DNA from: an uncultured Eudoraea sp. | GTDB taxonomy: Bacteria > Bacteroidota > Bacteroidia > Flavobacteriales > Flavobacteriaceae | NCBI RefSeq assembly: GCF_947490415.1 | Contig: NZ_CANLGX010000007.1 | Coordinates: forward strand, 1 to 64,000 | Direction: 5' to 3' | DNA length: 64,000 bases | In this document: one piece after another, positions 13,432 to 53,205 of the stretch | Layout: the number at the start of each line of letters is the position of its first letter | Position numbering within the stretch: position 1 is the stretch's first letter | The notes under the pieces: model-generated | Database searches by the model: none | The model's input: the letters and a program-made list of their open reading frames with translations, nothing else | What the model was told of the DNA's origin: nothing | Made by a program: the position numbers and the translations under genes

Positions 13432-14298
13432 ATGAAATATTCATTGATTAATGCCAATGAAATTACGACTTTTACAAATCAAAAAAAAAAGATGACCAAA
13501 ACTACTAATCCATTACTACTTGCTATTACTGCATCTATCCATGCAGGAAAGGCTATTCTTGATATTTATAACAAACCGGAATTTGAATCCCATTTAAAAA
13601 ATGATCAGTCACCGCTTACCGAAGCGGATTTGGTAGCAAGTAAAATTATCAATAATCACTTAATAGATACCCCTTATCCCATTATCAATGAAGAAATAAA
13701 GAATAAGGACTATGCAGAGCGTAAAATATGGGAAACCTGTTGGATTGTAGACCCGCTGGACGGAACAAAAGAATTTATTAAAAGAAATGGTGAATTTACA
13801 GTGAATATTGCCTTATGTAAAAATGGAGCGCCTATTTTAGGTGTTATTTATGTCCCGGTATCCCGGGAATTGTACTATGCAGATGTAAACTCCCAAAGCG
13901 CATTTAAAACAATTCTTGATGACAGTCACGGGTTTACTTCTAAAATTTTAAATGAAGAAGATCGCATATTTCCTTCCAAACCAAATAAATCTTTAATGCG
14001 CGTGGTAGGAAGTCGTTCCCATATGAATGACACTACACTTGATTTTATTAATGAAGTAGAGAAAAAATATGAAAAAGTAGAAATCGTATCTAAAGGAAGT
14101 TCTTTGAAATTCTGTTTAGTTGCCGAAGGTAAAGCCGATGTATATCCCCGCTTTGCCCCTACTATGGAATGGGACACCGCAGCAGGACAGGCTATTTGCA
14201 AGGCAGCCGGGCTTAAGGTGATCTCCAGGGAAACTAACGAAGAATTGGACTACAACAAAGAAAATTTATTGAATCCTCATTTTATAGTTAGTACTTAA
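13432..14298 (+). CDS. cysQ: 3'(2'),5'-bisphosphate nucleotidase CysQ
   Basis: CysQ hydrolyses PAP (3'-phosphoadenosine 5'-phosphate), the by-product of PAPS-dependent sulfation. The inositol monophosphatase fold is clear: SPLTEADL, the metal-binding WIVDPLDGTKEFIKRNGEFT, and the C-terminal EWDTAAGQAICKAAG. The track start gives 288 residues, but the ATG at 13492 (MTKTTNPLLL, residue 21) gives a length closer to the family, and the first 20 residues look unconserved; either start is possible. The stop codon overlaps the start of the next gene (TAATG). It leads the operon cysQ-DUF2061-cysC-cysD-cysN. Confidence 0.92.
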   Translation: MKYSLINANEITTFTNQKKKMTKTTNPLLLAITASIHAGKAILDIYNKPEFESHLKNDQSPLTEADLVASKIINNHLIDTPYPIINEEIKNKDYAERKIWETCWIVDPLDGTKEFIKRNGEFTVNIALCKNGAPILGVIYVPVSRELYYADVNSQSAFKTILDDSHGFTSKILNEEDRIFPSKPNKSLMRVVGSRSHMNDTTLDFINEVEKKYEKVEIVSKGSSLKFCLVAEGKADVYPRFAPTMEWDTAAGQAICKAAGLKVISRETNEELDYNKENLLNPHFIVST

Positions 14299-14729
14299 TG
14301 ACTAATATTTCCCATAAAAGACATATTGCAAAGACCATTACATGGCGGATTGTAGGTACCATAGATACCATTTTGTTGTCATGGCTCATTTCGGGTAATC
14401 CTCTGACCGGACTCAAAATTGGGTTTTCAGAAGTAGTAACCAAAATGATTTTGTATTATTTACATGAAAGGGCCTGGTTTAATATTGGAATTGCCGAAAG
14501 TCGTAAAAGACATCTAATTAAGACCATAACATGGAGATTTGTGGGTACATTAGATACCATTTTACTATCTTGGCTCATCTCCGGAAATCCTTTAATTGGT
14601 TTAAAAATAGGAATGGCTGAAGTAGTTACAAAAATGGTTTTGTATTATTTTCACGAGCGGGCATGGTACAAAATCAACTTTGGCTTGCCTAAAAGAAATC
14701 AGACAAAAAAATGGAAAAAAATATTGTAG
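14298..14729 (+). CDS. Tandem DUF2061 small membrane protein
   Basis: Two near-identical copies of a ~50-residue DUF2061 domain are joined head to tail. The first is TITWRIVGTIDTILLSWLIS and the second TITWRFVGTLDTILLSWLIS, each followed by SGNPL.GLKIG..EVVTKM and a YHERAW-type motif. Each copy probably contributes two short membrane helices. Its function is not known; DUF2061 genes often sit beside cysC in marine bacteria, so a role linked to sulfate or sulfonucleotide handling is plausible but unproven. The start overlaps the cysQ stop by one base, and the end overlaps cysC by 19 bases, so tight co-translation is expected. Confidence 0.85.
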   Translation: MTNISHKRHIAKTITWRIVGTIDTILLSWLISGNPLTGLKIGFSEVVTKMILYYLHERAWFNIGIAESRKRHLIKTITWRFVGTLDTILLSWLISGNPLIGLKIGMAEVVTKMVLYYFHERAWYKINFGLPKRNQTKKWKKIL

Positions 14730-15313
14730 CCCATACTTATAGAATTGACAGGGAAGCCCGAAGAAAATCTTACGGACATAATTCCTTTTTGATATTCTTT
14801 ACCGGATTATCCGGGTCCGGAAAGTCAACAATAGCCAACGTTCTTGAGGAAAAACTCTTTTCCGAAAGTATAAAAACCTATGTTTTAGATGGGGATAATG
14901 TGCGTCGGGGTATTAATCAGGGTCTTACGTTTAGCCCGGAAGACAGATCAGAAAATATTCGAAGAATTGGAGAAATATCCAAATTGTTTATTGATGCAGG
15001 AATAGTTATATTGGCTGCATTTGTTGCACCATATGAAAAAGACAGACAGCAAATAAAAAAGACCGTTGGAAATAAAAACTATGTAGAGGTATTTGTGAAT
15101 ACTAGTTTGGAAGTCTGTGAAGCCCGGGACGTAAAAGGTCTGTATAAAAAAGCTCGAAACGGAGCCATAAAAAATATGACAGGTATTTCTGCTCCCTACG
15201 AGCCTCCTAAAAATCCTACAGCTGAAGTAACTCAGGAGAACTCTGTAGAGGAAGCTGTGCAGATCATATATGATAAAATTAAAAATAAATTAAGTCTTAA
15301 AGATAATGAGTAA
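14711..15313 (+). CDS. cysC: Adenylyl-sulfate kinase CysC
   Basis: CysC phosphorylates APS to PAPS, the universal sulfate donor. Walker A GLSGSGKS lies at residues 32-39. The APS-binding region VLDGDNVRRGINQGLTFSPEDRSENIRR is typical, as is FVAPYEKDR and the KGLYKKARNGAIKNMTGIS lid. Length 200 aa is normal and no sulfurylase fusion is present. It overlaps DUF2061 by 19 bases and cysD by 8 bases. With three sulfotransferases nearby, PAPS is most likely meant for polysaccharide sulfation. Confidence 0.96.
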   Translation: MEKNIVAHTYRIDREARRKSYGHNSFLIFFTGLSGSGKSTIANVLEEKLFSESIKTYVLDGDNVRRGINQGLTFSPEDRSENIRRIGEISKLFIDAGIVILAAFVAPYEKDRQQIKKTVGNKNYVEVFVNTSLEVCEARDVKGLYKKARNGAIKNMTGISAPYEPPKNPTAEVTQENSVEEAVQIIYDKIKNKLSLKDNE

Positions 15314-16211
15314 ATATTTTTTGAATTATTTAGACGAACTAGAATCCGAGGCAATTTATGTACTTAGGGAGGTCTGGGCTCAATTTCAAAATCCTGTAAT
15401 ACTTTTTTCAGGTGGAAAAGACTCTATTGTGTTAACCCATCTTGCAAAAAAAGCGTTTTATCCAAGTAAAATTCCTTTTGCACTAATGCATGTAGATACA
15501 GGCCACAATTTTCCGGAAACCATTAAATTCAGAGATGATCTGGTTAGCGAACTTGATGCCCGACTTATAGTGGGGTTAGTTCAGGAATCCATTGACCAGG
15601 GTCGTGTAGCTGAGGAACAGGGTAAACACGCCACCAGAAATGCGTTGCAAATCACTACTTTATTGGATACCATTGAGGCTCATAAAATAGATTGTGCCAT
15701 TGGTGGAGGAAGAAGGGATGAAGAGAAAGCCAGAGCTAAAGAGCGTTTCTTTTCACACCGTGATGATTTCGGGCAGTGGGATCCGAAAAATCAGCGACCG
15801 GAATTATGGAACATTTTTAATGGAAAACACTTTGAAGGTGAGCATTTTAGGGTGTTCCCTATAAGTAACTGGACGGAGATGGATGTGTGGAATTATATAA
15901 AGAGGGAACAAATTGAAATCCCATCGCTCTATATTGCTCATGAAAGAGAAGTTGTTTGGAGAAACGATTCCTGGATTCCAAATTCTGAATTCCTGACTTT
16001 ACATGATAATGAAAAAATAGAAACGAAAAAAATCAGGTTCCGTACATTAGGTGATATAACGATTACCGGTGGTATTGAATCTGAAGCCGATTCTCTGGAA
16101 AAAATTGTGAATGAAGTTTCGGCTATGCGACAGACAGAACGTGGTAACAGAACTGATGACAAACGATCTGAAAATGCCATGGAGGACAGAAAAAAGCAAG
16201 GATATTTTTAA
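15306..16211 (+). CDS. cysD: Sulfate adenylyltransferase subunit 2 CysD
   Basis: CysD is the PP-loop subunit of ATP sulfurylase, making APS from sulfate and ATP with CysN. The PP-loop SGGKDS is at residues 35-40, followed by HVDTGHNFPETI, the GGGRRDEEKARAKER stretch and PISNWTEMDVWNYI. The C-terminal TLGDITITGGIES and the end at ENAMEDRKKQGYF are classic CysD. Length 301 aa is standard. It overlaps cysC by 8 bases and precedes cysN by 17 bases. Confidence 0.97.
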   Translation: MSKYFLNYLDELESEAIYVLREVWAQFQNPVILFSGGKDSIVLTHLAKKAFYPSKIPFALMHVDTGHNFPETIKFRDDLVSELDARLIVGLVQESIDQGRVAEEQGKHATRNALQITTLLDTIEAHKIDCAIGGGRRDEEKARAKERFFSHRDDFGQWDPKNQRPELWNIFNGKHFEGEHFRVFPISNWTEMDVWNYIKREQIEIPSLYIAHEREVVWRNDSWIPNSEFLTLHDNEKIETKKIRFRTLGDITITGGIESEADSLEKIVNEVSAMRQTERGNRTDDKRSENAMEDRKKQGYF

Positions 16212-16228
16212 AAAATTAGAAAACTTTT

Positions 16229-17485
16229 ATGAAAATTAATAATAATCAGTTATTGCGATTTACTACCGCAGGAAGTGTTGATGACGGGAAAAGCACTTTA
16301 ATCGGTCGCTTGTTATACGATTCCAAATCCATTTTTGAAGACCAATTGGAGGCCATTGAAAATACCAGCAGACAAAGAGGTCATGAGGGGGTAGATCTTG
16401 CTTTATTTACAGATGGACTCAGAGATGAACGCGAACAGGGCATTACTATTGATGTTGCCTATAGATATTTCACGACGCCTAAAAGAAAGTTTATCATTGC
16501 CGACACCCCGGGACATATTCAGTATACCCGAAATATGGTAACGGGAGCTTCCACAGCAAACGCAGCCATAATTTTGATTGATGCAAGACATGGAGTGATA
16601 GAGCAAACCAAACGACATGCTTTTATAGCCTCCCTTTTGAATATTCCGCATATCATCGTATGCATAAACAAAATGGATCTTGTAGATTTTAATGAAGAAG
16701 TCTATAATGATATTATCAAACAATTTGAGGCGTTCTCTTCCAAATACATAGTTACGGACATCCGGTTTATTCCCATAAGTGCGCTATTGGGTGATAATGT
16801 GGTACACAGATCAGAAAACATGTCATGGTACAATGGAGGTGCACTTTTACACACCTTAGAAACTATACATATAAGCAGTGATTATAATAAAGTGGACGCC
16901 CGTTTACCTGTGCAAACTGTTCTTCGTCCTCAGCGCGATGGGTTTTTGGATTACAGAGGATACGCAGGAAGGGTAGCAAGCGGTCTTTTAAGAAAGGGAG
17001 ATGCAGTAACTGTATTGCCTTCAGGATTTACTTCTATTATAGATTCTATCCAGGGGCCTTCAGGAGAGTTAGATGAAGCCTTTGCACCAATGTCTGTATC
17101 TATTACCCTAAAAGATGATATAGATATTGGCAGAGGTGATATGATAGTCAGAACAACCAATATTCCGGAAACCTCCCAGGATATAGAAGCTTGGTTATGT
17201 TGGTTGCATAATAATTCCGCCAAACCCAGGGCTAAATATACCATCAGGCATACTTCAAACGAACAAAAGGCTATGATAAAAGAAGTATTATTTAAAATTA
17301 ATATTAACACTTTAGCTCATAATACCGAAGACAAAGACCTGAATATGAACGATATATGTAAAGTTCTTATTAGAACTACGCAGCCCCTTATGGTAGATTC
17401 GTATAGGGAAAACAGATCAACCGGAAGTTTTATTTTGGTTGATGAAAATACGAATGAGACCGTTGCTGCGGGAATGATTGTTTAA
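16229..17485 (+). CDS. cysN: Sulfate adenylyltransferase subunit 1 CysN
   Basis: CysN is the GTPase subunit that drives APS synthesis by CysD. It has an EF-Tu-like G domain: GSVDDGKSTLIGRLL (P-loop, residues 15-29), EQGITIDVAYRYF (switch I), DTPGHIQYTRNM (G3) and NKMD (G4). It ends after the C-terminal beta-barrel domains at 418 residues, so there is no fused CysC kinase; CysC is separate upstream. No cysH or sulfite reductase follows, so the operon stops at activated sulfate, consistent with feeding sulfotransferases. Confidence 0.97.
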   Translation: MKINNNQLLRFTTAGSVDDGKSTLIGRLLYDSKSIFEDQLEAIENTSRQRGHEGVDLALFTDGLRDEREQGITIDVAYRYFTTPKRKFIIADTPGHIQYTRNMVTGASTANAAIILIDARHGVIEQTKRHAFIASLLNIPHIIVCINKMDLVDFNEEVYNDIIKQFEAFSSKYIVTDIRFIPISALLGDNVVHRSENMSWYNGGALLHTLETIHISSDYNKVDARLPVQTVLRPQRDGFLDYRGYAGRVASGLLRKGDAVTVLPSGFTSIIDSIQGPSGELDEAFAPMSVSITLKDDIDIGRGDMIVRTTNIPETSQDIEAWLCWLHNNSAKPRAKYTIRHTSNEQKAMIKEVLFKININTLAHNTEDKDLNMNDICKVLIRTTQPLMVDSYRENRSTGSFILVDENTNETVAAGMIV

Positions 17486-17647: not shown

Positions 17648-18979
17648 ATGAAAAAACTTAGATATATTTTTATTGCTATAGTAGGAATATTAATTTTTTC
17701 GACTTTACTGGCATCCAGTATCCGTAATATTTATGGTTCAAAAGATGGTGGTTACGGTCGTTTTGGTATTCTGGTAAAACCATTAAAGTTTATGGCAGAA
17801 ATACCTTCGACGGTTAAGAAGGTATTTTCCCCCGCCGAGTTTTATGTTACCAATTCAACGTCGAAAGAAGGACTTACCTTTAACAAGAATTTTGAACTAA
17901 AGGAGTATCCTAATTTATTAGTGTCATATAAAGAAAAGGAATTTGATCAAAAATTTGATCTAATTGATCTTAATAACGGAAGCTTAATAAAAAGGTGGGA
18001 GCCCAATAATAAAACACTCTATGAGCAAGCATACAATTTAAATAATCCCAGAAAACCATCAAAAGGAAGTGATCTTTATTTTATGCATCCTCTAATTTTA
18101 GAAGATAGCACCTTAATATTTTCTGCTCAGCTTACTAGCTTACTAGCTAAAATTGATAAAAATAGTCAATTGATTTGGTTAAAGAATGACAGAACTTACC
18201 ACCATACCTTAGAGCTGGATATTAATGGAAATATTTATACATGTACCACGCCCTTCCAATCTAAAAAATATAATTTTTTGTCTGATAACTATGATATCTA
18301 TAAAAATAATATTATTGATGATCATATTACCTTAATAGATAAAAATAATGGAAATGAGCTATTTGATAAATCTATTATTGATATCTTGTTGGAAAATGGA
18401 TATGAAGATTTATTGTTAGCTAAGGGACAAATTAATAGTGATCCTGTTCACTTAAACGACATACAACCTGCCTTATATTCCACTGACCATTGGTTAGAGG
18501 GGGATCTTCTTATTTCATGCCGTAATTTGAGCGCTGTTTTTCTCTATCGGCCATCAACAAACAAAATTCTTTGGTTAAAATCAGGACCATGGTATAATCA
18601 GCACGATGTTGATTTTCTTGATGATGATAAGGTTTTAGTTTTTGGAAATGATGTCATACGTGAAGAGAGTATTATTGATCCAAGGTTAACAACATCGAAT
18701 CTCTTCTTTTCAAGTGAAAGACCTCATAATAATGCATATGTATATCATTTATCTAATGATAGTATTAGCACTCCATATACCGATCTTTTTCAAACTGAAG
18801 AAATCCATACATACACTTCTGGCAGGTGTGATATCCTACCTAATGGAGATATTTTTATAGAAGATACCAATCATGGAAGGATAATTATTGGGAATTCGAC
18901 AACCAAAAAAATAGAATATGTAAAACGACTCGATAAGGACCATATTTCCAGTCTTTTTTGGAGCCGTATTGTTAATTAA
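17648..18979 (+). CDS. Membrane-anchored arylsulfotransferase-like (ASST family) protein
   Basis: An N-terminal membrane helix (residues 5-25) is followed by a probable beta-propeller with many W/NG-type strand repeats. Two stretches resemble the arylsulfotransferase family: HHTLELDINGNIYTC (about residues 184-198) and NQHDVDFLDDDKVLVFGND (about 316-334), which match the His-containing active-site strands of ASST. Known ASSTs move sulfate between phenolic compounds without PAPS; the acceptor here is unknown and catalysis is not proven from sequence. It sits directly behind the cysQ-cysN operon (162-base gap) and ahead of two small membrane proteins and a PAPS sulfotransferase, so a role in sulfated polymer assembly is likely. 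No lipobox is seen. Confidence 0.65.
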   Translation: MKKLRYIFIAIVGILIFSTLLASSIRNIYGSKDGGYGRFGILVKPLKFMAEIPSTVKKVFSPAEFYVTNSTSKEGLTFNKNFELKEYPNLLVSYKEKEFDQKFDLIDLNNGSLIKRWEPNNKTLYEQAYNLNNPRKPSKGSDLYFMHPLILEDSTLIFSAQLTSLLAKIDKNSQLIWLKNDRTYHHTLELDINGNIYTCTTPFQSKKYNFLSDNYDIYKNNIIDDHITLIDKNNGNELFDKSIIDILLENGYEDLLLAKGQINSDPVHLNDIQPALYSTDHWLEGDLLISCRNLSAVFLYRPSTNKILWLKSGPWYNQHDVDFLDDDKVLVFGNDVIREESIIDPRLTTSNLFFSSERPHNNAYVYHLSNDSISTPYTDLFQTEEIHTYTSGRCDILPNGDIFIEDTNHGRIIIGNSTTKKIEYVKRLDKDHISSLFWSRIVN

Positions 18980-18992
18980 AAAATTGTAAGAT

Positions 18993-19145
18993 ATGCTTTT
19001 ATATTTAGGACCGGGACTTGGCGGCGGAATTATCGCCATAATTACAGGAATATTTTTAACTTTTTTTGCATTTTTAGTTGCTGTCTTCTGGCTTCCGCTA
19101 AAACGATTTTTTGGTTTTCTAAAAAGCAAATTTAACAAAGGATAG
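18993..19145 (+). CDS. 50-residue hydrophobic membrane protein
   Basis: This ORF is too short for the track. ATG at 18993 opens 50 codons ending in TAG at 19143-19145. The protein begins MLLYLGPGLGGGIIAIITG, is nearly all hydrophobic through about residue 36 and ends in a basic tail (LKRFFGFLKSKFNKG). It starts 13 bases after the ASST-like gene and ends one base before the next ORF, so it fits tightly into the operon, which supports it being a real gene. Gly-rich LGPGLGGG starts recur in small proteins of polysaccharide loci as I remember them, but no function is known to me. The basic tail suggests a cytoplasmic C-terminus. Confidence 0.68.
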   Translation: MLLYLGPGLGGGIIAIITGIFLTFFAFLVAVFWLPLKRFFGFLKSKFNKG

Positions 19146-19146
19146 T

Positions 19147-19530
19147 TTGGCATATTTTGCATTGGTTATTTTAACCGTAATCTCCTGTTTACTGTTTGAA
19201 TATTCGGGAATACCGAATACTTTAAAGACATTGATGTCAGCCTATCGTCAGCAATTTACTGTGATGTCCGACAAGAATTTAAAGGATGAAGAAAAACAAA
19301 AGCAATTAATGAATCTGATTCCAAAACAATTAATATTATTAGGCAAGCTTGTCCTTGGCATTATCCTTTTTATAGCACCTTTTTTAAGCCTCTTTCTTCT
19401 TAAAATTCTGGAACCTGATCTCAACCCTGATATTTTGATAACCTGGTGGGGTATAACTATCCCTATAGGAACCGTATTTTTATATATTTATATTAAACGC
19501 TTTTATGGCAACCTACAGCGCAACAGATAA
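19147..19530 (+). CDS. Small membrane protein of unknown function (TTG start)
   Basis: The ORF begins with TTG one base after the stop of the 50-aa gene. The 127-residue product has a first membrane helix (residues 2-18), a polar stretch containing KNLKDEEKQKQL, and two strong hydrophobic helices (about residues 58-80 and 92-115). I do not recognise the family. It overlaps the start of the following sulfotransferase by 26 bases, so translation is coupled to it. Position between an ASST-like protein and a PAPS sulfotransferase suggests a helper or membrane partner in sulfation; this is inference from context only. Confidence 0.7.
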   Translation: MAYFALVILTVISCLLFEYSGIPNTLKTLMSAYRQQFTVMSDKNLKDEEKQKQLMNLIPKQLILLGKLVLGIILFIAPFLSLFLLKILEPDLNPDILITWWGITIPIGTVFLYIYIKRFYGNLQRNR

Positions 19531-20524
19531 GTTTCTGCATAAGTTTTACCTTTCTAACTATAGTATTTCCAAAGCTACGTTGGAGATGGAAGAGCTACTT
19601 TACAGCCAAAAAGCAAAACAGTTGGAAGTAAAACAATATGTTTTTGTTACGGGTCTGGCAAGATCCGGAACTACGGCAGTTATGAATAAAATATTTGAAA
19701 CCGGGTTATATGCATCCTTGCAATACGCTAATATGCCATTTTTATTGAGTCCAAATCTTTGGAAGAGGAAATCAAAAATCGAATCTCATGAGAGGGCGCA
19801 TAAAGATGGAATTATCATTGACGGTAATTCGCCTGAAGAATTTGATGAATATTTCTGGAAAGTTTTCATGAATGACTCTTATATAATGAGTGATGGATTA
19901 GCTTTGCATGAAGCAGGTGAAGAGGTGTTGGAGAAATATTTAAAATATATCTCATTAATTTGCCTGGCCAAAGGAAAAGATAAATATATCTCCAAGAACA
20001 ATAATAATGTATTGCGTTTATCCACACTTAACAAAATTGATCATAGTAAAATAATTCTCCTGTTCAGGGATCCGTTATCTCATGCGTCTTCGTTAATGAA
20101 ACTTGACCGGAGGTTTTCAAAAAATCAAACTGAAGATCCCTTTACCCTTGAATATTTTAATTATCTGGGGCATCACGAGTTTGGTTTAAACCATAAACCA
20201 TTTCTGTTAACTTCTGACTTTGATGCTAATAGAGAATTGTATACCAAAGAAAGTTTGAACTATTGGTTAAGCGTTTGGCTTAACTATTATAGCTATATAT
20301 TGCAGAATATGGAAGATGACTACATGTTTGTTGGTTTTGAAGATTTGATCAAGAATCCTGACATGGTTTATTCTTATCTTGCAGATTGTCTAAGTCTGGA
20401 AATTGAATTTGAGGAGAGCAAAAAACATAATCCAACTACTTATGAAGTCTTGAATTATGATAGAGAATTGTTAAACCAATGTATTAAAGTCTATGATTCG
20501 CTTACAGAATTGAAAAAGTATTGA
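19505..20524 (+). CDS. PAPS-dependent sulfotransferase (carbohydrate type)
   Basis: The 5'-phosphosulfate-binding loop is FVTGLARSGTTAVM at residues 47-60, the RSGTT form seen in carbohydrate sulfotransferases. The second PAPS contact (3'-phosphate site) is likely in IILLFRDPLSHASSLMKLDRRF (about residue 180). The C-terminal part contains VGFEDLIKNPDMV, which resembles the YEDL..P segment of the family. Length 339 aa. It overlaps the preceding membrane-protein gene and is downstream of the PAPS-producing operon. The sugar substrate is unknown. Confidence 0.87.
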   Translation: MATYSATDKFLHKFYLSNYSISKATLEMEELLYSQKAKQLEVKQYVFVTGLARSGTTAVMNKIFETGLYASLQYANMPFLLSPNLWKRKSKIESHERAHKDGIIIDGNSPEEFDEYFWKVFMNDSYIMSDGLALHEAGEEVLEKYLKYISLICLAKGKDKYISKNNNNVLRLSTLNKIDHSKIILLFRDPLSHASSLMKLDRRFSKNQTEDPFTLEYFNYLGHHEFGLNHKPFLLTSDFDANRELYTKESLNYWLSVWLNYYSYILQNMEDDYMFVGFEDLIKNPDMVYSYLADCLSLEIEFEESKKHNPTTYEVLNYDRELLNQCIKVYDSLTELKKY

Positions 20525-24426: not shown

Positions 24427-25200
24427 ATGGCAAATACAAAGACTTCAACATATATTTTTCTAAAAGGAAAACTAAAAAAATGTATTGCCCAGCTTTTCGG
24501 AAATAAGCAATACGAAAAATTGGTAATACTAGGACGTCAGCGAACTGGCTCAAGTCTTTTAAAGACACTGCTTCACGCTCATCCTAAAATTGATATTGAA
24601 GGTGAAGTGTTCCGGTTACTGGAAGGTAAAAGTTGTAGAACCGTTTGGAAAGAAACGTTTTCTAAAAAGTTGCCTTGGATAAAGTATGCAGGCTTTAAAC
24701 TTTTTTATAATCATCCAGATGACAGTGAGGATAGAGAAGTTTGGGAAATCTTAAATGCTGACACTAATGTCAAAGTTATACATATAAAACGTGAAAACAT
24801 TTTAAGGACCTATATTTCTAAATTGATAGCTCTAAAGACCGGTGCATGGAACAGCCGTCAGGAGGAGGAAAAAACAGAATTTTTGGATAAACGTGTCAAA
24901 GTTGATGTTGAACATTGTTTGAATGAACTAAGGGAAATCAAAAAGCTAGAAGCGCAATTTGGCAAGACTCGATTTCCAAATCATCCATACATTGAGCTTT
25001 CCTTTGAAGAACTCACTCAAGATAAAGAAGGTCAATTAAGTCGTATTTATTCATTTTTGGGATTAGAGTACGAAAAAATAGAAAAAACAAAAATTAATCT
25101 GAAAAGGCAGAACCCTGAAGGTCTGAGAGAATTGATTTTAAATTACGACGATTTGGTGGAGAAAATAAGTCATTCCGAATTTAAGAATCTTTTATCTTGA
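24427..25200 (+). CDS. PAPS-dependent sulfotransferase
   Basis: The 5'-phosphosulfate-binding loop is ILGRQRTGSSLLKTLLHAHP (residues 34-53), with RTGSS replacing RSGTT; this variant is common in Stf0/NodH-like and other carbohydrate sulfotransferases. VIHIKRENILRTYISKLIA (about residue 115) resembles the 3'-phosphate site, and ELSFEELTQDKEGQLSRIYSFLGL matches the usual C-terminal motif. Length 257 aa is short but complete. It follows the sugar dehydrogenase by 112 bases. The acceptor sugar is unknown. Confidence 0.87.
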   Translation: MANTKTSTYIFLKGKLKKCIAQLFGNKQYEKLVILGRQRTGSSLLKTLLHAHPKIDIEGEVFRLLEGKSCRTVWKETFSKKLPWIKYAGFKLFYNHPDDSEDREVWEILNADTNVKVIHIKRENILRTYISKLIALKTGAWNSRQEEEKTEFLDKRVKVDVEHCLNELREIKKLEAQFGKTRFPNHPYIELSFEELTQDKEGQLSRIYSFLGLEYEKIEKTKINLKRQNPEGLRELILNYDDLVEKISHSEFKNLLS

Positions 25201-25935: not shown

Positions 25936-27849
25936 ATGAAATTTAATACCGAAAGTCCCCTAGTTTTGTTGTGCCTTTTTTTTAGTATCTCTTTCTTCTT
26001 TTCCTGCAGTAAGGACTCGGATTTGATGGCCGATTACGTTGCATTAGATCCCGAAGTACTCATTGGAAAATATGTTAGGAGTGATATCTTTCAAATATCC
26101 ATAATCAATAACCCGGAGGATGAGACTTTTGAAATAACGGTTAATAACGGAAGTGATGGTGCTGAAAATAGCGGAAGCGGTGGCACTTCAAGTGCTGTAA
26201 GCGCTGGCACTACCGTGAATGATACTTATCAAACATCCTCAAGTGCCAGCATCGTTCTTGATGTTTTGGCCAATGATACTTTTAATGATCTGGAAAATGT
26301 TTCAATAAGTGAAGTAACGCAACCCGACAATGGTGAGGTTGTAATTAATTCAGACAATACATTAACATTCACCCCATTTATAGTCGAACCAACCGAAGAT
26401 ACCTTTACCTATACTGCTGAATTTATTAATGAGGATGGTACGGTTAGTAAAGAAACTGCTACTGTTACCATTACTATAAACCAAGATCCCAACAAAACTA
26501 GGGGTGAGTTAAAAGCCTTCCCAACGGCGGAAGGATTTGGTAAATATGCAACTGGTGGACGTGGAAAACCTATTTATACAGTAACAAATCTTAACAATAG
26601 TGGAGCAGGAAGTTTAAGGCAAGCGGTAGAGGATGCTGAAGATAACGATGGTGGAACAGTTGTATTTAAAACAGGTGGCACTATAAATCTTCTTTCTGCT
26701 ATTACTGTTGGCACTGACACTAAGGGCAATATTACTATTGCGGGCGAAACTGCACCTGGGGATGGAATTACCCTTAGAATGGATTCTAGTGCTACTTATG
26801 GTGCTACATTAGAAATTAGGGGATCTAATGTAATAGTAAGATATATAAGAAGTCACATAGGTTTAACGGCACACAGTGGTTGTGATAATGTTAGGATACA
26901 TACAGCAGGCTCAACTTCAGAACCCAGTTTGAACGCTACTTTAGAAAATGTAATAATTGACCATCTATCTTTATATTGGAATACTGATGAATCCGTTGAA
27001 ATTGGGGCATATAATGGAGGTACTGTAAGGAACATAACTGTGCAGAATTGCATAATAGCTGAAGCCTTAGAGTCCGGATATGGCGCATTGGTTTATAGGT
27101 CCTCCACCTCCCCGTCGGAACCCACATTAGTAGAAAACGTGAGTTTTTATGCAAATATGTTTAACGACATAAAAGATAGATATCCGCGAATAACTAATAG
27201 TGGTTGTGAACACGAAACTATTAATAACATTTGGTATAATACACAATCTCCATTTGGTTCGGCTTGGGGTACTTTAACTGATGTTATTGGAAACGTAAAA
27301 AAGAATAATGGAAATGTACAGCCTTCTACTCTATATGGTCCAGCCATTTTTAAATATTATCAAGGTGAAAACGGACCACAAATTGAACCTTGGGTTAATT
27401 CAGAAGATGGATCAGTGTATGATAAAGATAATTTAATAATTGGAGACAATACTGGAAACCCCTTGTATAATTCAGATTGGATGAATCATAAAGCAGCTTC
27501 AAGGATTCATTCTGACAGTCCTATAACTCCCATGCCTTCCTCACAAGTTTCTGGTTATGTAGTGAAAAATGTTGGTCACAACCTTGCAAGAGACTCACAC
27601 GACACTAGGGTTATAAACAATTTTGTAAATAGTACGGGGACTCACGTAACCAATGAAACACAAGTGGGTGGACATTTGACCTATGCAACAGGAACACCCT
27701 ATGCCGATGCGGATGGCGATAATATGTGGGACGTAGCTGAAATAGCTATTTGGGGCAATATAACCACAACGAACAATCCAATTGCTGATGAAAATGGGGA
27801 TGGCTATACTAATATAGAGGAAACTTTCTTTTATTTTACGGGTGAATAA
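25936..27849 (+). CDS. Pectate-lyase-like (PL1-type beta-helix) surface lipoprotein
   Basis: A lipoprotein signal ends in FFSC (Cys about 24). A Ser/Gly-rich linker leads to a bacterial Ig-like/cadherin-type domain (about 90-185, with VLDVLANDTF and DTFTYTAEFINEDG). The catalytic part (about 193-545) begins AFPTAEGFGKYATGGRGKP, continues SGAGSLRQAVEDAEDNDGGTVVF and has right-handed beta-helix strands, as in PL1-type pectate lyases. The tail has calcium-binding-like repeats (DADGDNMWD and DENGDGYTNIEE). In a polysaccharide export locus it may trim or release the acidic polymer made here, or help remodel the biofilm matrix. Activity on uronic acid polymers fits the sugar genes but is inferred. 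Confidence 0.8.
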   Translation: MKFNTESPLVLLCLFFSISFFFSCSKDSDLMADYVALDPEVLIGKYVRSDIFQISIINNPEDETFEITVNNGSDGAENSGSGGTSSAVSAGTTVNDTYQTSSSASIVLDVLANDTFNDLENVSISEVTQPDNGEVVINSDNTLTFTPFIVEPTEDTFTYTAEFINEDGTVSKETATVTITINQDPNKTRGELKAFPTAEGFGKYATGGRGKPIYTVTNLNNSGAGSLRQAVEDAEDNDGGTVVFKTGGTINLLSAITVGTDTKGNITIAGETAPGDGITLRMDSSATYGATLEIRGSNVIVRYIRSHIGLTAHSGCDNVRIHTAGSTSEPSLNATLENVIIDHLSLYWNTDESVEIGAYNGGTVRNITVQNCIIAEALESGYGALVYRSSTSPSEPTLVENVSFYANMFNDIKDRYPRITNSGCEHETINNIWYNTQSPFGSAWGTLTDVIGNVKKNNGNVQPSTLYGPAIFKYYQGENGPQIEPWVNSEDGSVYDKDNLIIGDNTGNPLYNSDWMNHKAASRIHSDSPITPMPSSQVSGYVVKNVGHNLARDSHDTRVINNFVNSTGTHVTNETQVGGHLTYATGTPYADADGDNMWDVAEIAIWGNITTTNNPIADENGDGYTNIEETFFYFTGE

Positions 27850-30602: not shown

Positions 30603-31436
30603 ATGTCTAAATTAACAAAGAAAATAAGACGTAGAATTTACCGTGAGTTAAAGCACCTGAATCAAGATCTATTAACTCCAAATCATAAGGAGAAAAAAAT
30701 CGTTTTTATTATGGGAGCTCAGCGATCGGGCACAACCATGCTAACGAATTTATTCGAACGCGACAAGACTATTAGGGTTTACCAGGAATTCAGCAGATTA
30801 ACCCCCAACTTGCGATTGATTCCGTACCCAAAAGTACAAGAACAGATCAATAGAAACCATGCAGGGGTTATTGTTCTAAAACCATTGGTAGAATCCCAGA
30901 ATATTGATCAGTTGTTTAGTTTTTTTCCAGAATCAAAATCAATTTGGGCATTCCGCCACTTTAGAGATGTAGGATCTTCCAATCTTAAAAAGTTTGGCCT
31001 TAGAAACGGAATTGATGATCTTCGGCCAATTTACCATGAAGACAATGAAAACTGGCGCGTTGAGGGCATCTCCAATGAAACAAAGGCGATAATCAAAGAC
31101 TATTTTTCAGAAGATATGTCTCCTCGGGATGCTGCTGCCCTTTTTTGGTATACACGTAATATACTATTCTTTGAGCGAGACTTAACTCTAAATGATCGAG
31201 TCTACCTTCTTAAGTATCGTGATTTGGTTTCCGAGCCTTCAAAGAAAATAAAGGAAGTTTACGATTTTGTTGGAATCGAACACCCAAAATACTCTTTGGT
31301 GTCGGACGTAAACGCATCTTCAATTGGCAAGGGAAAGCAATTTGAACTTTCTCCGGAAATAGAAACGTTATGTGAAGAGCTATGGAATAGGTTGAATACC
31401 GCTCTCAAAATACAGAATAAAAAAGAATCCCGCTAA
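30603..31436 (+). CDS. PAPS-dependent sulfotransferase
   Basis: The 5'-phosphosulfate-binding loop FIMGAQRSGTTMLTNLFERD lies at residues 35-54. SIWAFRHFRDVGSSNLKKFGL (about residue 117) fits the 3'-phosphate-binding segment, and LLKYRDLVSEPSKKIKEVYDFVGI is the usual C-terminal motif. Length 277 aa. This is the third PAPS sulfotransferase in the locus and is unlike the other two outside the PAPS motifs, so it probably has a different acceptor position. It is next to a GT4 gene. Confidence 0.88.
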   Translation: MSKLTKKIRRRIYRELKHLNQDLLTPNHKEKKIVFIMGAQRSGTTMLTNLFERDKTIRVYQEFSRLTPNLRLIPYPKVQEQINRNHAGVIVLKPLVESQNIDQLFSFFPESKSIWAFRHFRDVGSSNLKKFGLRNGIDDLRPIYHEDNENWRVEGISNETKAIIKDYFSEDMSPRDAAALFWYTRNILFFERDLTLNDRVYLLKYRDLVSEPSKKIKEVYDFVGIEHPKYSLVSDVNASSIGKGKQFELSPEIETLCEELWNRLNTALKIQNKKESR

Positions 31437-37069: not shown

Positions 37070-38053
37070 ATGATCAATTTTAGAAAATTAATAAAAAACT
37101 TTTACCATAAAACTCAACTGGGAAAAGTATTGATATCTCCTTATATGTTTTACAGAGATTACATAATGTCTGATACTACATATGTAAAAAGAAGTTTTAA
37201 AAGAGAAATGGGATATAACATTAATTTAAACAATCCTATAACACTAAATGAAAAGATGCAGTGGTCAAAGCTTTATAACGATAATACAGCATTACATACC
37301 CAATGTGCAGATAAATATGCAGTAAGAGAGCATGTGGCATCAAAAATTGGCCAAGAATATTTGGTTCCTCTATATTTTACCACAAAAGATCCGGCACAAA
37401 TTGTACCGGATAACTTACCCAAGACTCCATGTATCATCAAAACAAATCATGATAGTTCAGGAGGAATAATCATAAAAAATTTACATAACGTAAATTGGAA
37501 GAAAATTCAAAAATCCCTTAAAGAGAGAATGAGTAAAAATTACTATTATATCTCTAAAGAACAACAATATAAAGATATTGTTCCACGAATCATAGTAGAA
37601 AAATTGTTGCTTGATAAACAAGGAAACGTTCCAAATGATTACAAAATACACTGTTTTAATGGAAACCCAGAGTTTATAGGAGTGGATATTGATAGATTTT
37701 CCAACCATACGAATAACTTATACAATATCAAATGGGAATTACTTCCATTTATATGGTCCGTTAAGGATGATGATAAAAAGCCCCGTTTGGCTAATGGCCG
37801 TGAAATTCAAAAACCAAAAAATCTTAATAAGTTATTGACTTTAGCAAAAGCCCTATCCGAAGATTTTATCTATTCCAGAATAGACTTTTATGTTGTTGAT
37901 GAAGAAATTTATTTTGGTGAAATAACATTTCATCATGGTGGTGGCGTTGCACATTTTATTCCTAAAGAATGGGATACTTACTATGGAAATATTTTGAAAA
38001 TTCCTCTTAATAGAAACATTTTACCAAAAAAAATGCATCCAGTCACTTATTGA
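37070..38053 (+). CDS. TupA-like ATP-grasp protein
   Basis: The protein matches the TupA-like ATP-grasp family in polysaccharide and teichuronopeptide loci. PITLNEKMQWSKLYNDN, the ADKYAVREHVASKIGQEYLVPL block, PCIIKTNHDSSGGIII (ATP-binding strand, about residues 125-140), IVEKLL and FGEITFHHGGG are all present. The family is thought to form amide or peptide-like bonds or to act with glycosyltransferases, but the reaction is not established. Length 327 aa. It is about 75% alike by eye to the second copy at 38989 and follows a GT4, so it belongs to a duplicated GT4-TupA unit. Confidence 0.85.
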   Translation: MINFRKLIKNFYHKTQLGKVLISPYMFYRDYIMSDTTYVKRSFKREMGYNINLNNPITLNEKMQWSKLYNDNTALHTQCADKYAVREHVASKIGQEYLVPLYFTTKDPAQIVPDNLPKTPCIIKTNHDSSGGIIIKNLHNVNWKKIQKSLKERMSKNYYYISKEQQYKDIVPRIIVEKLLLDKQGNVPNDYKIHCFNGNPEFIGVDIDRFSNHTNNLYNIKWELLPFIWSVKDDDKKPRLANGREIQKPKNLNKLLTLAKALSEDFIYSRIDFYVVDEEIYFGEITFHHGGGVAHFIPKEWDTYYGNILKIPLNRNILPKKMHPVTY

Positions 38054-38988: not shown

Positions 38989-39930
38989 ATGATCAATTTT
39001 AGAAATTTATTTAAATATTATTACCATAATACCCGATTGGGAAAAGTTTTGATATATCCTTATATGTTTTACAGAGATTATATAATGTCTGATGTGACAT
39101 ATATAAAAAAAAGTTTTAAAAGAGTAATGGGATATAACGTTAATTTAAAAGATCCAATAACACTAAATGAAAAGATACAGTGGTTAAAACTTAACGATAA
39201 GACAGCATTACATACACAATGTGCAGATAAGTATGCGGTAAGAGAGTATGTGGCATCGAAAATTGGTCAAGAATACTTGGTTCCTCTATACTTTACCACA
39301 AAAGATCCGGCACAAATTGTGCCAGATAACTTACCTCAAACTCCTTATATCATCAAAACAAATCATGATAGTTCAGGTGGTATAATCATACAAAATGTAC
39401 ATGATGTTAACTGGAAAGAAATACAAAAAACCCTTAAAAGGAGAATGAGTAAAAATTACTATTATTATAGTAAAGAAAGACAATACAAAAATATCATTCC
39501 TCGAATCATAGTAGAAAAATTATTGGAAGATAAAAACGGTAACATCCCTTTTGATTATAAGGTACATTGTTTTAACGGTAAGGTACGAATGATCAGTGTT
39601 GATATGTGGCGAGGCACAAATGACCATCACAGAAATTGGTATTCAACCGATTGGCAAAGAGAGCCCTATAAATGGTCATCACCAAAGGGGCCTGGGAAAT
39701 TTACAGATCCTAGTGAAATCGATATAGAAAAGCCTAAGTCGCTTGAGGATATGATCAAATTGTCCGAAATTTTAGCTGAATCCTTTTTATATGTACGTGT
39801 AGATTGGTACGATGTAGATGATACACTCTATTTTGGTGAACTAACGTTTCACCATGATAGCGGTTTTCAGCCCATACTACCTAAAATCTGGGATGAAAAA
39901 CTGGGAAAGGAGTTAATATTAACTAGGTAG
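38989..39930 (+). CDS. TupA-like ATP-grasp protein, second copy
   Basis: A paralog of the protein at 37070 with the same order of motifs: ITLNEKIQWLKLNDKTALH, ADKYAVREYVASKIGQEYLVPL, YIIKTNHDSSGGIIIQNV, IVEKLLEDKNGNIP and FGELTFHHDSG. The two diverge most in residues 195-245, which may set the substrate, since the first has FIGVDIDRFSNHTN where this one has MISVDMWRGTNDHH. Length 313 aa. The start and 30 bases of leader are duplicated too. The upstream GT4 of this copy is broken, so this gene may now depend on its own promoter. Confidence 0.85.
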   Translation: MINFRNLFKYYYHNTRLGKVLIYPYMFYRDYIMSDVTYIKKSFKRVMGYNVNLKDPITLNEKIQWLKLNDKTALHTQCADKYAVREYVASKIGQEYLVPLYFTTKDPAQIVPDNLPQTPYIIKTNHDSSGGIIIQNVHDVNWKEIQKTLKRRMSKNYYYYSKERQYKNIIPRIIVEKLLEDKNGNIPFDYKVHCFNGKVRMISVDMWRGTNDHHRNWYSTDWQREPYKWSSPKGPGKFTDPSEIDIEKPKSLEDMIKLSEILAESFLYVRVDWYDVDDTLYFGELTFHHDSGFQPILPKIWDEKLGKELILTR

Positions 39931-43065: not shown

Positions 43066-43671
43066 ATGTATAAAAGGTTTTTTAAAAGAATACTAGATTT
43101 TTTGGCATCATTATTAGCTTTGCTCCTATTATCACCGGTCATCATCATATTGATCATATTGCTGATGTTTGCCAATAATGGAAAACCATTTTTCTTTCAA
43201 AAAAGACCCGGGAAAGATGAGAAATTATTCAACATTATCAAGTTCAAGACCATGAAAGATCCAAAAGACAAGGATGGTGAATTGCTTGACCAGGCACAAC
43301 GTATTACGAAAGTCGGCGGATTTGTTCGAAAAACCTCTTTAGATGAACTACTACAGTTGATCAATGTTTTAAAAGGAGATATGTCAATCGTGGGACCCAG
43401 ACCACTATTGATTCAATACCTTCCTTTATACAATAAAGAACAGGCCAGGAGGCATTTGGTCAAGCCGGGTATCACTGGCTGGGCCCAGGTAAATGGGCGT
43501 AATAATTTATCACATGAAGATAAATTTGCCCTTGATGTGTGGTATGTTGATCATTTAAGTTTCAGCACCGATTTAAAAATCTTGTTGAAAACCATTCAAA
43601 AAGTATTCAATCGAAAGGATATTTCCTCCATTGAGCAAGATTCGTTTATTCCATGGGAAGGAAACACCTGA
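43066..43671 (+). CDS. Initiating phosphoglycosyltransferase (PglC-like sugar transferase), copy 1
   Basis: This monotopic bacterial sugar transferase moves a sugar-1-phosphate from UDP-sugar to undecaprenyl phosphate and so starts repeat-unit synthesis. It has a single N-terminal reentrant helix (LDFLASLLALLLLSPVIIILIILL), FFFQKRPGKDEKLFNIIKFKTM, the catalytic pair in TSLDELLQLINVLKGDMSIVGPRPLL, and PGITGWAQVNGRN. Length 201 aa matches PglC, with no N-terminal four-helix domain as in WbaP. It is nearly identical to copy 2 at 51316; the differences cluster near the C-terminus. PglC enzymes often use UDP-diNAcBac-type sugars, which the CapD and DegT genes could supply. Confidence 0.93.
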   Translation: MYKRFFKRILDFLASLLALLLLSPVIIILIILLMFANNGKPFFFQKRPGKDEKLFNIIKFKTMKDPKDKDGELLDQAQRITKVGGFVRKTSLDELLQLINVLKGDMSIVGPRPLLIQYLPLYNKEQARRHLVKPGITGWAQVNGRNNLSHEDKFALDVWYVDHLSFSTDLKILLKTIQKVFNRKDISSIEQDSFIPWEGNT

Positions 43672-48996: not shown

Positions 48997-49558
48997 AGGG
49001 ATATTAACCGAAATATTACGATGCAACCCAACTTAACCCGGATATTTGTTCTGTTAGTACTATTGTTCATATCTATTTAATAGGATATAATAGACAGGGA
49101 AGTGATAAAATTCAGATTTATTATTTTTGTGACCAAATCTTATCAAAACTTAGATCGATTATATGTATGATAGAAATCATAAAGGATAAAGAAGTTTGGG
49201 ACACTCTTGTGAAAAAATGTGATTTCGCAGACTTTTACCATACCTACGACTATCATCACACGGCTAAGGCTAAAGATGAAGAACCAGTTTTGATTCATTA
49301 TAAAGAGAATGACAAAACAATAGTTTTGCCACTGCTTTTCAGAAACATTCAATACTCCTTATATAAAGATGCGACGTCGGTTTATGGGTACCCTGGGCCA
49401 ATTACCAAAAACATAACTTCTGATTTTAACTTCAGTGTATTTCAAAAAGAAATACATCAGTTATTTCGGGAACAAAATATTATTTCTGTCTTTTCCAGGT
49501 TAAACTCATTTATACCTTACCAAGAAAGCTGTTTGCTCGGCCTGGGCCAGACGGAAAC
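48931..49558 (+). repeat. 628-base near-identical direct repeat, copy A
   Basis: Matches 51938-52565 at an offset of exactly 3007 bases. By eye I count four differences in 628 bases. It covers the intergenic leader and the first 130 or so codons of the FemAB-like gene, then ends abruptly: after GACGGAAAC the two copies differ at many positions. Confidence 0.9.
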
Positions 49559-50261
49559 GCTAGGGAGAGTTGTATATATCGACTTAACTAAAACACTGGA
49601 TGAGCAATGGGCGGCTTACAGTAAAAGGCTACGGACATATATAAATAAGTCGAGAACCATATACACTATTAAGAAAGCTAATGAACCAGCTGATCTTGAG
49701 GCATTCATTGCATTATATTATGAAAATATGAGGCGGGTAAATGCAAACAAGGAGTATTTCTATGATAAAAAGTATTTTCTTGATTTAATAAATAATAATG
49801 ATTGCGAAACTGAACTGTTATTGGCCATCAATAAAGAAACAGCTGAGGTGGCCGGAGGGGCCATCTTCACAAAAAAAAATACATTTGTGCAATATCACCT
49901 TGCTGGAACCGGTGAAAGATATCTGGATTTAAATCCTGTTAAACTGTTAATAGATGAAATGCGGATTAGAGGAACCCGGGAAAACTTCAAATATTTTAAT
50001 CTTGGTGGTGGTGTTGGTAGTCTGGAAGATTCATTATTCTACTTCAAATCGGGATTTTCAAAAGATTCAATACTCTTCAAAGTCTGGAAATATATGGTGA
50101 ATCCTATTATCTACGAAGACTTGGTTCAAGAGAGAAAGGATATTCAACATTCCGATGAAACATTGCAATACTTTCCCCGTTATCGTAATAACGAACAATT
50201 TAACTTTGGTATAAATGAGAAACAACCTATTTATTTCAAACACCTTCATACAAAAGAATAA
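49167..50261 (+). CDS. FemAB/GNAT-like transferase (peptidoglycan-bridge type), copy 1
   Basis: The 364-residue protein has the fold of FemAB/BioF2-like acyl or aminoacyl transferases: FYHTYDYHHTAKAKDEEPVL near the start, AYSKRLRTYINKSRTIY (about residue 150) like the FemAB lysine-rich block, and a C-terminal YFNLGGGVGS..DSLFYFKSGFS that matches the GNAT-type acceptor core. Such proteins in polysaccharide loci probably add amino-acyl or acyl groups to sugars. The first ~130 residues are almost identical to copy 2 at 52174, whereas the rest is only about 70% alike. It shares TAATG with the next gene. Confidence 0.8.
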   Translation: MIEIIKDKEVWDTLVKKCDFADFYHTYDYHHTAKAKDEEPVLIHYKENDKTIVLPLLFRNIQYSLYKDATSVYGYPGPITKNITSDFNFSVFQKEIHQLFREQNIISVFSRLNSFIPYQESCLLGLGQTETLGRVVYIDLTKTLDEQWAAYSKRLRTYINKSRTIYTIKKANEPADLEAFIALYYENMRRVNANKEYFYDKKYFLDLINNNDCETELLLAINKETAEVAGGAIFTKKNTFVQYHLAGTGERYLDLNPVKLLIDEMRIRGTRENFKYFNLGGGVGSLEDSLFYFKSGFSKDSILFKVWKYMVNPIIYEDLVQERKDIQHSDETLQYFPRYRNNEQFNFGINEKQPIYFKHLHTKE

Positions 50262-51315: not shown

Positions 51316-51921
51316 ATGTATACACGGTTTTTTAAAAGAATATTAGATTTTTTGGCATCATTAATAGCTTTGCTCCTATTATCACCGGTCATCATCATAT
51401 TGATCATATTGTTGATGTTTGCCAATAACGGAAAACCATTTTTCTTTCAAAAAAGACCCGGGAAAAATGAGAAAATATTCACCATCATCAAGTTCAAGAC
51501 CATGAAAGATCCAAAAGACAAGGATAGTGAATTGCGTGACCAAGTACAGCGTATTACGAAAGTCGGTGGATTTATTCGAGATACTTCTTTAGATGAACTA
51601 CTACAGTTGATCAATGTTTTAAAAGGAGATATGTCAATCGTGGGACCCAGACCACTATTGACTATTTACCTTCCATTATATAATAAAGAACAGGCCAGGA
51701 GGCATTTGGTAAAGCCGGGTATCACTGGCTGGGCGCAGGTAAATGGACGTAACGACATATCATGGGATGATAAATTTGCTTTAGATGTATGGTATGTTGA
51801 TCATTTAAGTTTCAGCACCGATTTAAAAATCTTGTTGAAAACCGTTCAAAAAGTATTCAAGCGAGACGGTATTACCTCCGGTGAGCATGATATCTATGAG
51901 CCGTGGAGAGGTAACACCTAA
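51316..51921 (+). CDS. Initiating phosphoglycosyltransferase (PglC-like), copy 2
   Basis: Almost the same as copy 1 at 43066 (201 aa): reentrant helix LDFLASLIALLLLSPVIII, FFFQKRPGKNEKIFTIIKFKTM, DTSLDELLQLINVLKGDMSIVGPRPLL. It differs at scattered positions and at the end, where it has DGITSGEHDIYEPWRGNT and not DISSIEQDSFIPWEGNT. The differences in the substrate-binding C-terminus could give the two copies different donors, or one could be a backup. It is followed by the 69-base repeat and the second FemAB-like gene. Confidence 0.93.
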   Translation: MYTRFFKRILDFLASLIALLLLSPVIIILIILLMFANNGKPFFFQKRPGKNEKIFTIIKFKTMKDPKDKDSELRDQVQRITKVGGFIRDTSLDELLQLINVLKGDMSIVGPRPLLTIYLPLYNKEQARRHLVKPGITGWAQVNGRNDISWDDKFALDVWYVDHLSFSTDLKILLKTVQKVFKRDGITSGEHDIYEPWRGNT

Positions 51922-52003: not shown

Positions 52004-52565
52004 AGGGATATTAACCGAAATATTACGATGCAACCCAACTTAACCCGGATATTTGTTCTGTTAGTACTATTGTTCATATCTATTTAATAGGATATAATAG
52101 ACAGGGAAGTGATAAAATTCAGATTTATTATTTTTGTGACCAAATCTTATCAAAACTTAGATCGATTATATGTATGATAGAAATCATAAAGGATAAAGAA
52201 GTTTGGGACACTCTTGTGAAAAAATGTGATTTCGCAGACTTTTACCATACCTACGACTATCATCACACGGCTAAGGCTAAAGATGAAGAACCGGTTTTGA
52301 TTCATTATAAAGAGAATGACAAAACAATAGTTTTGCCACTGCTTTTCAGAAACATTCAATACTCCTTATATAAAGATGCGACGTCGGTTTATGGGTACCC
52401 TGGGCCAATTACCAAAAACATAACTTCTGATTTTAACTTCAGTGTATTTCAAAAAGAAATACATCAGTTATTTCGGGAACAAAATATTATTTCTGTCTTT
52501 TCCAGGTTAAACTCATTTATACCTTACCAAGAAAGCTGTTTGCTCGGCCTGGGCCAGACGGAAAC
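51938..52565 (+). repeat. 628-base near-identical direct repeat, copy B
   Basis: Second copy of the repeat at 48931-49558. It ends in the middle of the FemAB-like gene after GACGGAAAC. Confidence 0.9.
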
Positions 52566-53205
52566 ACTGGGCAGAGTGGTGTATGCAGACCTGAATGAAA
52601 CACTTGATAAGCAATGGAAACTCTATCACAGGAGACTTAGAACGTATATCAACAAATCCAGAACTATTTACAAAATAAAAAATGCCAATATACGTGCTGA
52701 TTTAGATTCGTTTATTGATTTGTATTATGAAAATATGAGGCGGGTAAATGCAAACAAGGAGTATTTCTTTGACAAAAAGTATTTCCTGGATTTAATCAAC
52801 AGTTCTGATTTCGAGACTGAGGTATTACTGGCTATTAGCAGAAAGACAGGTGAAGTTGCGGGAGGGGCAATGTTTACAAAAAAGAATACTATTGTACAAT
52901 ATCACCTTTCTGGAACCAGTGAAAGATTCTTAGATTTAAATCCTATAAAATTGTTAATAGATGAAATGAGAATCAGAGGAAACCAGGCGAACTATAATTA
53001 TTTCAATCTTGGCGGCGGTGTTGGCGCTAAGAAGGATTCATTATTCTATTTTAAATCAGGATTTTCTAAATACACATTACCGTTCAAAGTCTGGAAATAT
53101 ATTGTGAATCCAAATATCTACGAAGATTTGGTTCAACAGAGAAAGGATATTCAACATTCCGATGAAACATTGCAATATTTTCCCCGCTATCGTGTTAACA
53201 AATAA
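52174..53205 (+). CDS. FemAB/GNAT-like transferase, copy 2
   Basis: A 343-residue paralog of 49167. Residues 1-130 are virtually identical; later parts vary (LYHRRLRTYINKSRTIYKIK; NYNYFNLGGGVGAKKDSLFYF). The shorter C-terminus ends at FPRYRVNK, whereas copy 1 goes on 20 residues more. The divergent C-terminal half holds the likely acceptor/donor site, so the two may have different specificity while sharing an N-terminal half. It follows copy 2 of the phosphoglycosyltransferase, matching the organisation of copy 1. Confidence 0.8.
   Translation: MIEIIKDKEVWDTLVKKCDFADFYHTYDYHHTAKAKDEEPVLIHYKENDKTIVLPLLFRNIQYSLYKDATSVYGYPGPITKNITSDFNFSVFQKEIHQLFREQNIISVFSRLNSFIPYQESCLLGLGQTETLGRVVYADLNETLDKQWKLYHRRLRTYINKSRTIYKIKNANIRADLDSFIDLYYENMRRVNANKEYFFDKKYFLDLINSSDFETEVLLAISRKTGEVAGGAMFTKKNTIVQYHLSGTSERFLDLNPIKLLIDEMRIRGNQANYNYFNLGGGVGAKKDSLFYFKSGFSKYTLPFKVWKYIVNPNIYEDLVQQRKDIQHSDETLQYFPRYRVNK

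Follow-up and report, generated by a model that had tools for sequence, protein, structure and literature searches.

Why would two unrelated sulfotransfer chemistries be encoded side by side in four tightly packed genes? ASSTs do not use PAPS and need an aryl sulfate as donor, and in the window studied here, i.e. the whole 64,000-nucleotide stretch of DNA analysed from an uncultured Eudoraea sp., an ASST-like gene is followed by two genes for small membrane proteins and by a PAPS-type sulfotransferase (ST) gene. The question reaches beyond this locus, as for most bacterial ASSTs neither the physiological role nor the natural partners are known (PMC13426309). Our data argue, with moderate confidence, for sulfation in two steps, relayed across the inner membrane, in which the two small proteins and the ST would act as a loader and the ASST as a writer. 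Searches of an open-access library gave no description of the four-gene unit.

Gene organization and surroundings of the unit

The four ORFs are listed in Table 1 together with the neighbouring genes and the residues discussed below. Their packing, sizes, TTG start and ST overlap, as described in an earlier sequence-only reading of this DNA, agree with the ORF coordinates, and both the TTG start and the overlap between the three-TM gene and the ST gene (TM/ST overlap) were seen again in two relatives (L012 and L013). In general, the small, TM and ST genes mostly abut or overlap, the TM/ST overlap usually comprising 4 to 40 nt, which suggests that they are translationally coupled. An RNA element was not found with Rfam, and scans for promoters and terminators remained at chance level.

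Table 1. Position of the four-gene unit, of proposed active-site codons and of neighbouring genes in the window
Feature	Position	Strand	Remarks
cysQ, 3'(2'),5'-bisphosphate nucleotidase	13432..14298	+	removes the by-product PAP; TIGR01331 above cut-off
DUF2061 membrane protein	14298..14729	+	two tandem domain copies (Pfam PF09834 twice)
cysC, APS kinase	14711..15313	+	PAPS-making; Pfam and NCBIfam
cysD, sulfate adenylyltransferase small subunit	15306..16211	+	NCBIfam
cysN, sulfate adenylyltransferase large subunit	16229..17485	+	NCBIfam
ASST-like gene	17648..18979	+	443 aa; membrane-anchored beta-propeller, Arylsulfotran_2; proposed periplasmic 'writer'
His186 codon	18203..18205	+	proposed counterpart of E. 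coli AssT His252, mapping inferred from motif order; 47/47
His268-Leu-Asn270 codons (H-x-N)	18449..18457	+	proposed counterpart of His356/Asn358; 47/47; aligned with Cpz4 H-I-N
Arg292 codon	18521..18523	+	proposed counterpart of Arg374; 45/47 Arg, 2 Lys; aligned with R of Cpz4 S-G-R-N
His319 codon in Q-H-D	18602..18604	+	proposed counterpart of catalytic His436; 47/47; aligned with Cpz4 Q-H-D-V
Thr388 codon	18809..18811	+	proposed counterpart of Thr501; 45/47 Thr, 2 Ser
50-aa 'YIGPG' protein gene	18993..19145	+	single TM; unnamed family; 13-nt gap after ASST ORF
Three-TM 127-aa protein gene	19147..19530	+	TTG start; 1-nt gap after 50-aa ORF; membrane part of sulfotransferase
PAPS-type ST gene	19505..20524	+	339 aa; 26-nt overlap with 127-aa ORF; proposed cytosolic 'loader'
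Further PAPS-type ST	24427-25200		no TM partner; Pfam
Pectate-lyase-like protein	25936-27849		secreted; by reading
Further PAPS-type ST	30603-31436		no TM partner; read from translation

Directly upstream of the unit lies a PAPS-making block (13432-17485), which the sequence-only reading had not mentioned. The DUF2061 gene between cysQ and cysC, possibly encoding a protein for sulfate entry, is also found in this place in L012, L013, L019, L021 and L027, and the whole block from cysQ to the ST gene is kept in the first two of these besides the window's own genome. Among 65 units, ten are adjoined by an APS kinase gene, i.e. five by the complete cysQ-DUF2061-C-D-N block and five by a cysC directly after the ST gene, the latter coming from distinct lineages (Daejeonella, Spirosoma, Mucilaginibacter, Thioglobus and L105). 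Counting Pfam families in 117 unit neighbours revealed no pathway for an acceptor or a carrier that recurs, apart from APS kinase and sugar-nucleotide genes, and type III PKS, a synthase for aryl carriers, was not among the 25 most frequent families in these proteins.

As read from the translations, the window's unit is surrounded by an exopolysaccharide (EPS) locus with export- and glycosyltransferase-type proteins as well as UDP-sugar dehydrogenase and epimerase ORFs. The two further STs of this locus probably sulfate the EPS or a precursor directly. The pectate-lyase-like protein, encoded within the locus as well, has homologs in four other unit-bearing loci. The EPS locus also holds three near-duplicate gene pairs (43066-43671 and 51316-51921; 49167-50261 and 52174-53205; 37070-38053 and 38989-39930), read as sugar transferases, FemAB-like and ATP-grasp-like genes, suggesting a recent segmental duplication.

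The ASST-like protein

The product of the first gene had been taken for a membrane-anchored propeller with ASST-like His motifs, and this identification was supported by a Pfam HMM search, in which the ORF matched Arylsulfotran_2 (PF14269) at 1.3e-38. The same family was matched by all 47 relatives, and PF05935 was reached at E 0.01 by only 23 of the 47. The anchor corresponds to a single predicted TM helix (residues 7-25). In the AlphaFold model (pLDDT 91.8) an N-terminal helix is followed by beta blades forming a propeller, and the top Foldseek match, i.e. the closest solved fold, was Cpz4 (4e-11).

The active site of AssT consists of His252, His356, Asn358, Arg374 and Thr501 in addition to the catalytic His436 (PMC13426309). 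Putative counterparts of each were located (Table 1), and the His motifs proved to be real, their His residues being conserved throughout the relatives. In a profile alignment, H268-x-N270, R292 and Q-H319-D fall on the same motifs of Cpz4. The assignment to AssT itself is based on motif order, because assT was absent from both annotated stretches of E. coli CFT073 that were used; a genome paralog did not reach AssT either. Searching PDB sequences with six close relatives returned weak propeller matches only (CylK), and as PQQ-like repeat designs prevailed among the matches of a broader profile, this profile was trimmed and then found Cpz4. As judged from the alignments, the active-site set is complete, with catalytic and sulfate-binding residues retained, and PAPS-independent sulfuryl transfer from aryl sulfates is predicted for the unit's ASST.

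The sulfotransferase and its membrane partners

The sequence-only reading was also right about the last gene, whose product matched Sulfotransfer_3 (9.8e-8) and Sulfotransfer_1 in Pfam and has intact PAPS motifs: in 46 of 46 members, both the Arg and Gly of GLARSGTT (5'-phosphate loop) and the Pro and Ser of R-x-P...S (3'-phosphate) are present. Fold matches of the catalytic domain were Stf1, Stf9, TPST and NDST. The 127-aa protein has three predicted TM helices with a basic stretch behind the last one, which would place the ST in the cytosol, where PAPS is. In about 15 loci, including L015 and L016 (462 aa there), both are fused into a single protein, and the model of such a TM-ST fusion reached a pLDDT of 92.8. 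Neither the 127-aa nor the 50-aa protein matched a Pfam or NCBIfam family above cut-off. The distance matrices of three unit proteins correlate at r = 0.88-0.89.

The 50-aa protein, with one predicted TM helix, represents a family that has not been named. In an alignment of 46 members, Tyr4, Gly6, Pro7 and Lys37 are invariant, and the motif at the mature N-terminus reads AxA|Y-[IL]-G-P-G. In members with a signal peptide, an AxA or similar site immediately precedes the Tyr, so that this residue would form the N-terminus of the mature protein. The tail carries a mean net charge of +6.6; together with the signal-peptide site, this predicts the N-terminus outside and the tail inside. The 50-aa protein shows a weak, sub-threshold resemblance to the N-terminus of VCA0040-like proteins (E 0.007), and six of the 46 members match them weakly. 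As the match to PF04018 covers only 25 residues at 16.4 bits against a gathering threshold of 26, the 50-aa protein was rejected as an undecaprenyl phosphate translocase of this kind.

For the topology of the unit's proteins, hydropathy and charge predict a periplasmic ASST and a cytosolic PAPS enzyme, in line with the earlier proposal that sulfate may be moved on both sides of the membrane. With an invariant Tyr that is the first mature residue after AxA wherever a signal peptide is present, the 50-aa protein could itself be the periplasmic shuttle, sulfated on this Tyr, and tyrosine-containing peptides are indeed sulfated by ASSTs (PMC13426309). However, with PAPS in the cytosol and the Tyr predicted on the periplasmic side, such a protein relay would still need a second carrier to cross the membrane, and we consider it very unlikely.

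Distribution and co-occurrence of the four genes

An ASST homolog was present in six of 301 family-level genomes. In one of them (L014, Muriicola) the ASST is alone at its locus; in L015 and L016, the ASST, small and ST genes lie outside any EPS locus and the TM part is fused to the N-terminus of the ST. When the ASST alignment was run against GTDB species genomes, it found 79 loci in Bacteroidota, Pseudomonadota, Cyanobacteriota (Prochlorococcus and Synechococcus), Nitrospinota, Myxococcota and others, and the four-gene unit itself occurs in all five of the named phyla. After removal of three duplicates and addition of the window and the family loci, the set comprised 82 loci. In this forward scan, which was seeded with the ASST alone, the small protein was encoded at 62 loci and the small protein together with the ST at 59 of the 82; an ST without the small protein was found at none of them.

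The reverse scan gave the same picture. The profile of the small protein was built from ASST neighbours, and the searches with it in the phylum genomes and in whole genomes were not limited to ASST loci. Against 396 phylum genomes it returned five strong matches, i.e. the window and four others, all beside an ASST and an ST, three more small matches (E about 5e-4) inside long ORFs being left out of the count. Seven of the 396 genomes have an ASST: five have both genes, two only the ASST, none only the small gene, and 389 neither. A hypergeometric estimate by hand for this co-occurrence is about 3e-10, which has to be read for genomes that are not independent, some belonging to the same genus.

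Where the unit is split, both halves are nearly always in the same genome. Among 20 genomes in which the retrieved ASST locus was without the small gene, a strong small gene was present elsewhere in 16, and in a 17th it is cut at the contig end beside the ASST. The 18th (G856) has the ST elsewhere, with no small gene detected, and in two MAGs (G841 and G851) the ASST is present and the loader was not detected. In eight of these genomes (L135, L137, L139, L140, L141, L144, L147 and L148), the small-TM-ST trio, or its visible part, lies away from any ASST; in L148, again from Muriicola, it stands directly behind ORFs whose lengths match those of the PAPS-block genes. For L142 and L149, a break of an intact unit during assembly is the probable explanation. 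In a quick tree, the unit-bearing ASSTs do not form a single clade (12 state changes versus 23.4 in shuffles), a pattern consistent with repeated separation of the unit's parts.

Chance clustering of the four genes is ruled out by the forward, reverse and trans tests, and origin in a single EPS pathway by the occurrence of the unit outside EPS loci, with no visible polysaccharide genes around it in L015, L016 and L071-L073. The four genes are confirmed as a coupled unit, kept in several phyla, and the case is stronger than the sequence-only reading could have seen. The separability of the trio, the TM-ST fusion and the Cpz4/Cpz8 precedent discussed below were all absent from that reading, as was the direction of a relay with the PAPS enzyme first and the ASST second.

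Since the ASST and the trio co-occur per genome even when unlinked, a biochemical dependence is indicated rather than a shared product. This bears on the possibility that both enzymes sulfate one polymer in parallel, the PAPS enzyme acting on lipid-linked precursors and the ASST adding sulfate from an unrelated, scavenged aryl sulfate, with the clustering reflecting only their common product. The window, where the EPS locus around the unit encodes two other PAPS STs (24427 and 30603), would suit such parallel sulfation. However, the four genes also stand alone in unrelated contexts with no polymer genes in common, and the strict co-occurrence of unlinked halves speaks against parallel action; we regard it as unlikely.

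Several genomes have more than one ASST per trio. Two or three full-length ASSTs accompany one strong small gene in G844, G840, G843, G852 and others, and every tested genome having an ST has exactly one. In G848, G844, G840 and other alphaproteobacterial genomes, the two to three full-length ASSTs are often in tandem and probably serve different acceptors. A different, larger type was seen in the window's own genome, on contig C1 of G000 (about 591106-595629, L003), with three tandem ASST-like genes without the small protein, the product of L003 having 519 aa, a lipoprotein-like leader and HH and QHD motifs.

The number of ASSTs per trio also helps to weigh a third alternative, namely that a sulfated membrane lipid is the product which the ST complex forms and exports, the ASST-like protein serving as a partner in binding or export and its catalysis being unused. 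The fusion of the ST to TM helices in many genomes and the weak likeness of the small protein to the VCA0040-like translocase would fit this view, but several ASSTs per loader are ill-suited to a single export partner, and the complete catalytic set is kept in the 47 relatives. Lipid export is thus rather improbable.

A proposed relay across the inner membrane

In the sulfation relay that we favour, the loader would consist of the ST together with the 50-aa and three-TM proteins, embedded in the membrane with the catalytic domain facing the cytosol. It would move the sulfuryl group from PAPS to a carrier soluble in the membrane, for which an aryl alcohol, e.g. a quinol or some other phenolic lipid, is the most plausible candidate. 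Once charged, this carrier would be offered at the periplasmic face, possibly by the N-terminal Y-I-G-P-G of the 50-aa protein, where the anchored ASST would take the sulfuryl group on His319 and write it onto an acceptor in the envelope. In the window's genome, this acceptor is probably the EPS made by the surrounding locus; it need not be EPS elsewhere, because the unit also occurs where no polysaccharide genes are visible.

A shared carrier fits the presence of one trio with several ASSTs in Alphaproteobacteria, and we suggest that a quinol-type carrier may be common to these phyla. It is tempting to speculate that the carrier charged by the relay is a universal one in the membrane, e.g. 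a quinol or a different isoprenoid phenol, and serves one or several periplasmic ASSTs, an extension that we put forward tentatively. If this is true, the universal-carrier relay would take the part of PAPS in the periplasm and act as natural donor system for this ASST class.

Through the unit, a broad ASST subfamily, in which marine Prochlorococcus, SAR11, SAR86 and SAR116 are represented, is tied to a PAPS-dependent membrane ST and to two unnamed protein families. The relay would provide a likely natural source of sulfate for a large class of bacterial sulfate-transfer enzymes that are orphans so far. If it is true, bacteria have a general route by which molecules of the envelope are sulfated outside the cytosol, and identifying what the ST modifies could lead to the natural donor of these ASSTs.

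Comparison with known systems

The closest precedent is caprazamycin biosynthesis in Streptomyces, where, as far as the work of Tang et al. (2013) is related in PMC4257720, the PAPS-dependent Cpz8 sulfates a triketide pyrone that then serves as sulfate donor for the ASST Cpz4. As in that pathway, a PAPS-dependent enzyme and an ASST are both present and linked in the unit, and the H-x-N, R-N and QHD motifs of Cpz4 are common to the unit's ASST. In contrast, Cpz8 and Cpz4 are accompanied by a type III polyketide synthase making the shuttle, and none recurs beside the unit. Moreover, the unit's ST carries TM helices, two unnamed membrane families are fixed parts of the unit and take the place of the synthase, and the unit's two enzyme types are predicted to lie on opposite sides of the membrane.

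AssT of E. coli CFT073 (PF05935, 3ELQ) is periplasmic, as predicted for the unit's ASST, and has its active-site residues in the same order, but it goes with DsbL/DsbI, and its description in PMC13426309 gives no link to a PAPS enzyme. The unit's ST resembles Stf1 and Stf9 (Sulfotransfer_3 type) and TPST in fold and PAPS motifs and differs from them by three N-terminal TM helices, contributed by fusion or by the overlapping partner gene, as well as by its near-obligate ASST companion. Finally, marine loci for sulfated EPS or CPS, such as that of Vibrio sp. KMM 8419 (PMC11641403), also hold STs and PAPS genes inside polysaccharide loci; in the parts of that account considered here, no ASST relay is noted.
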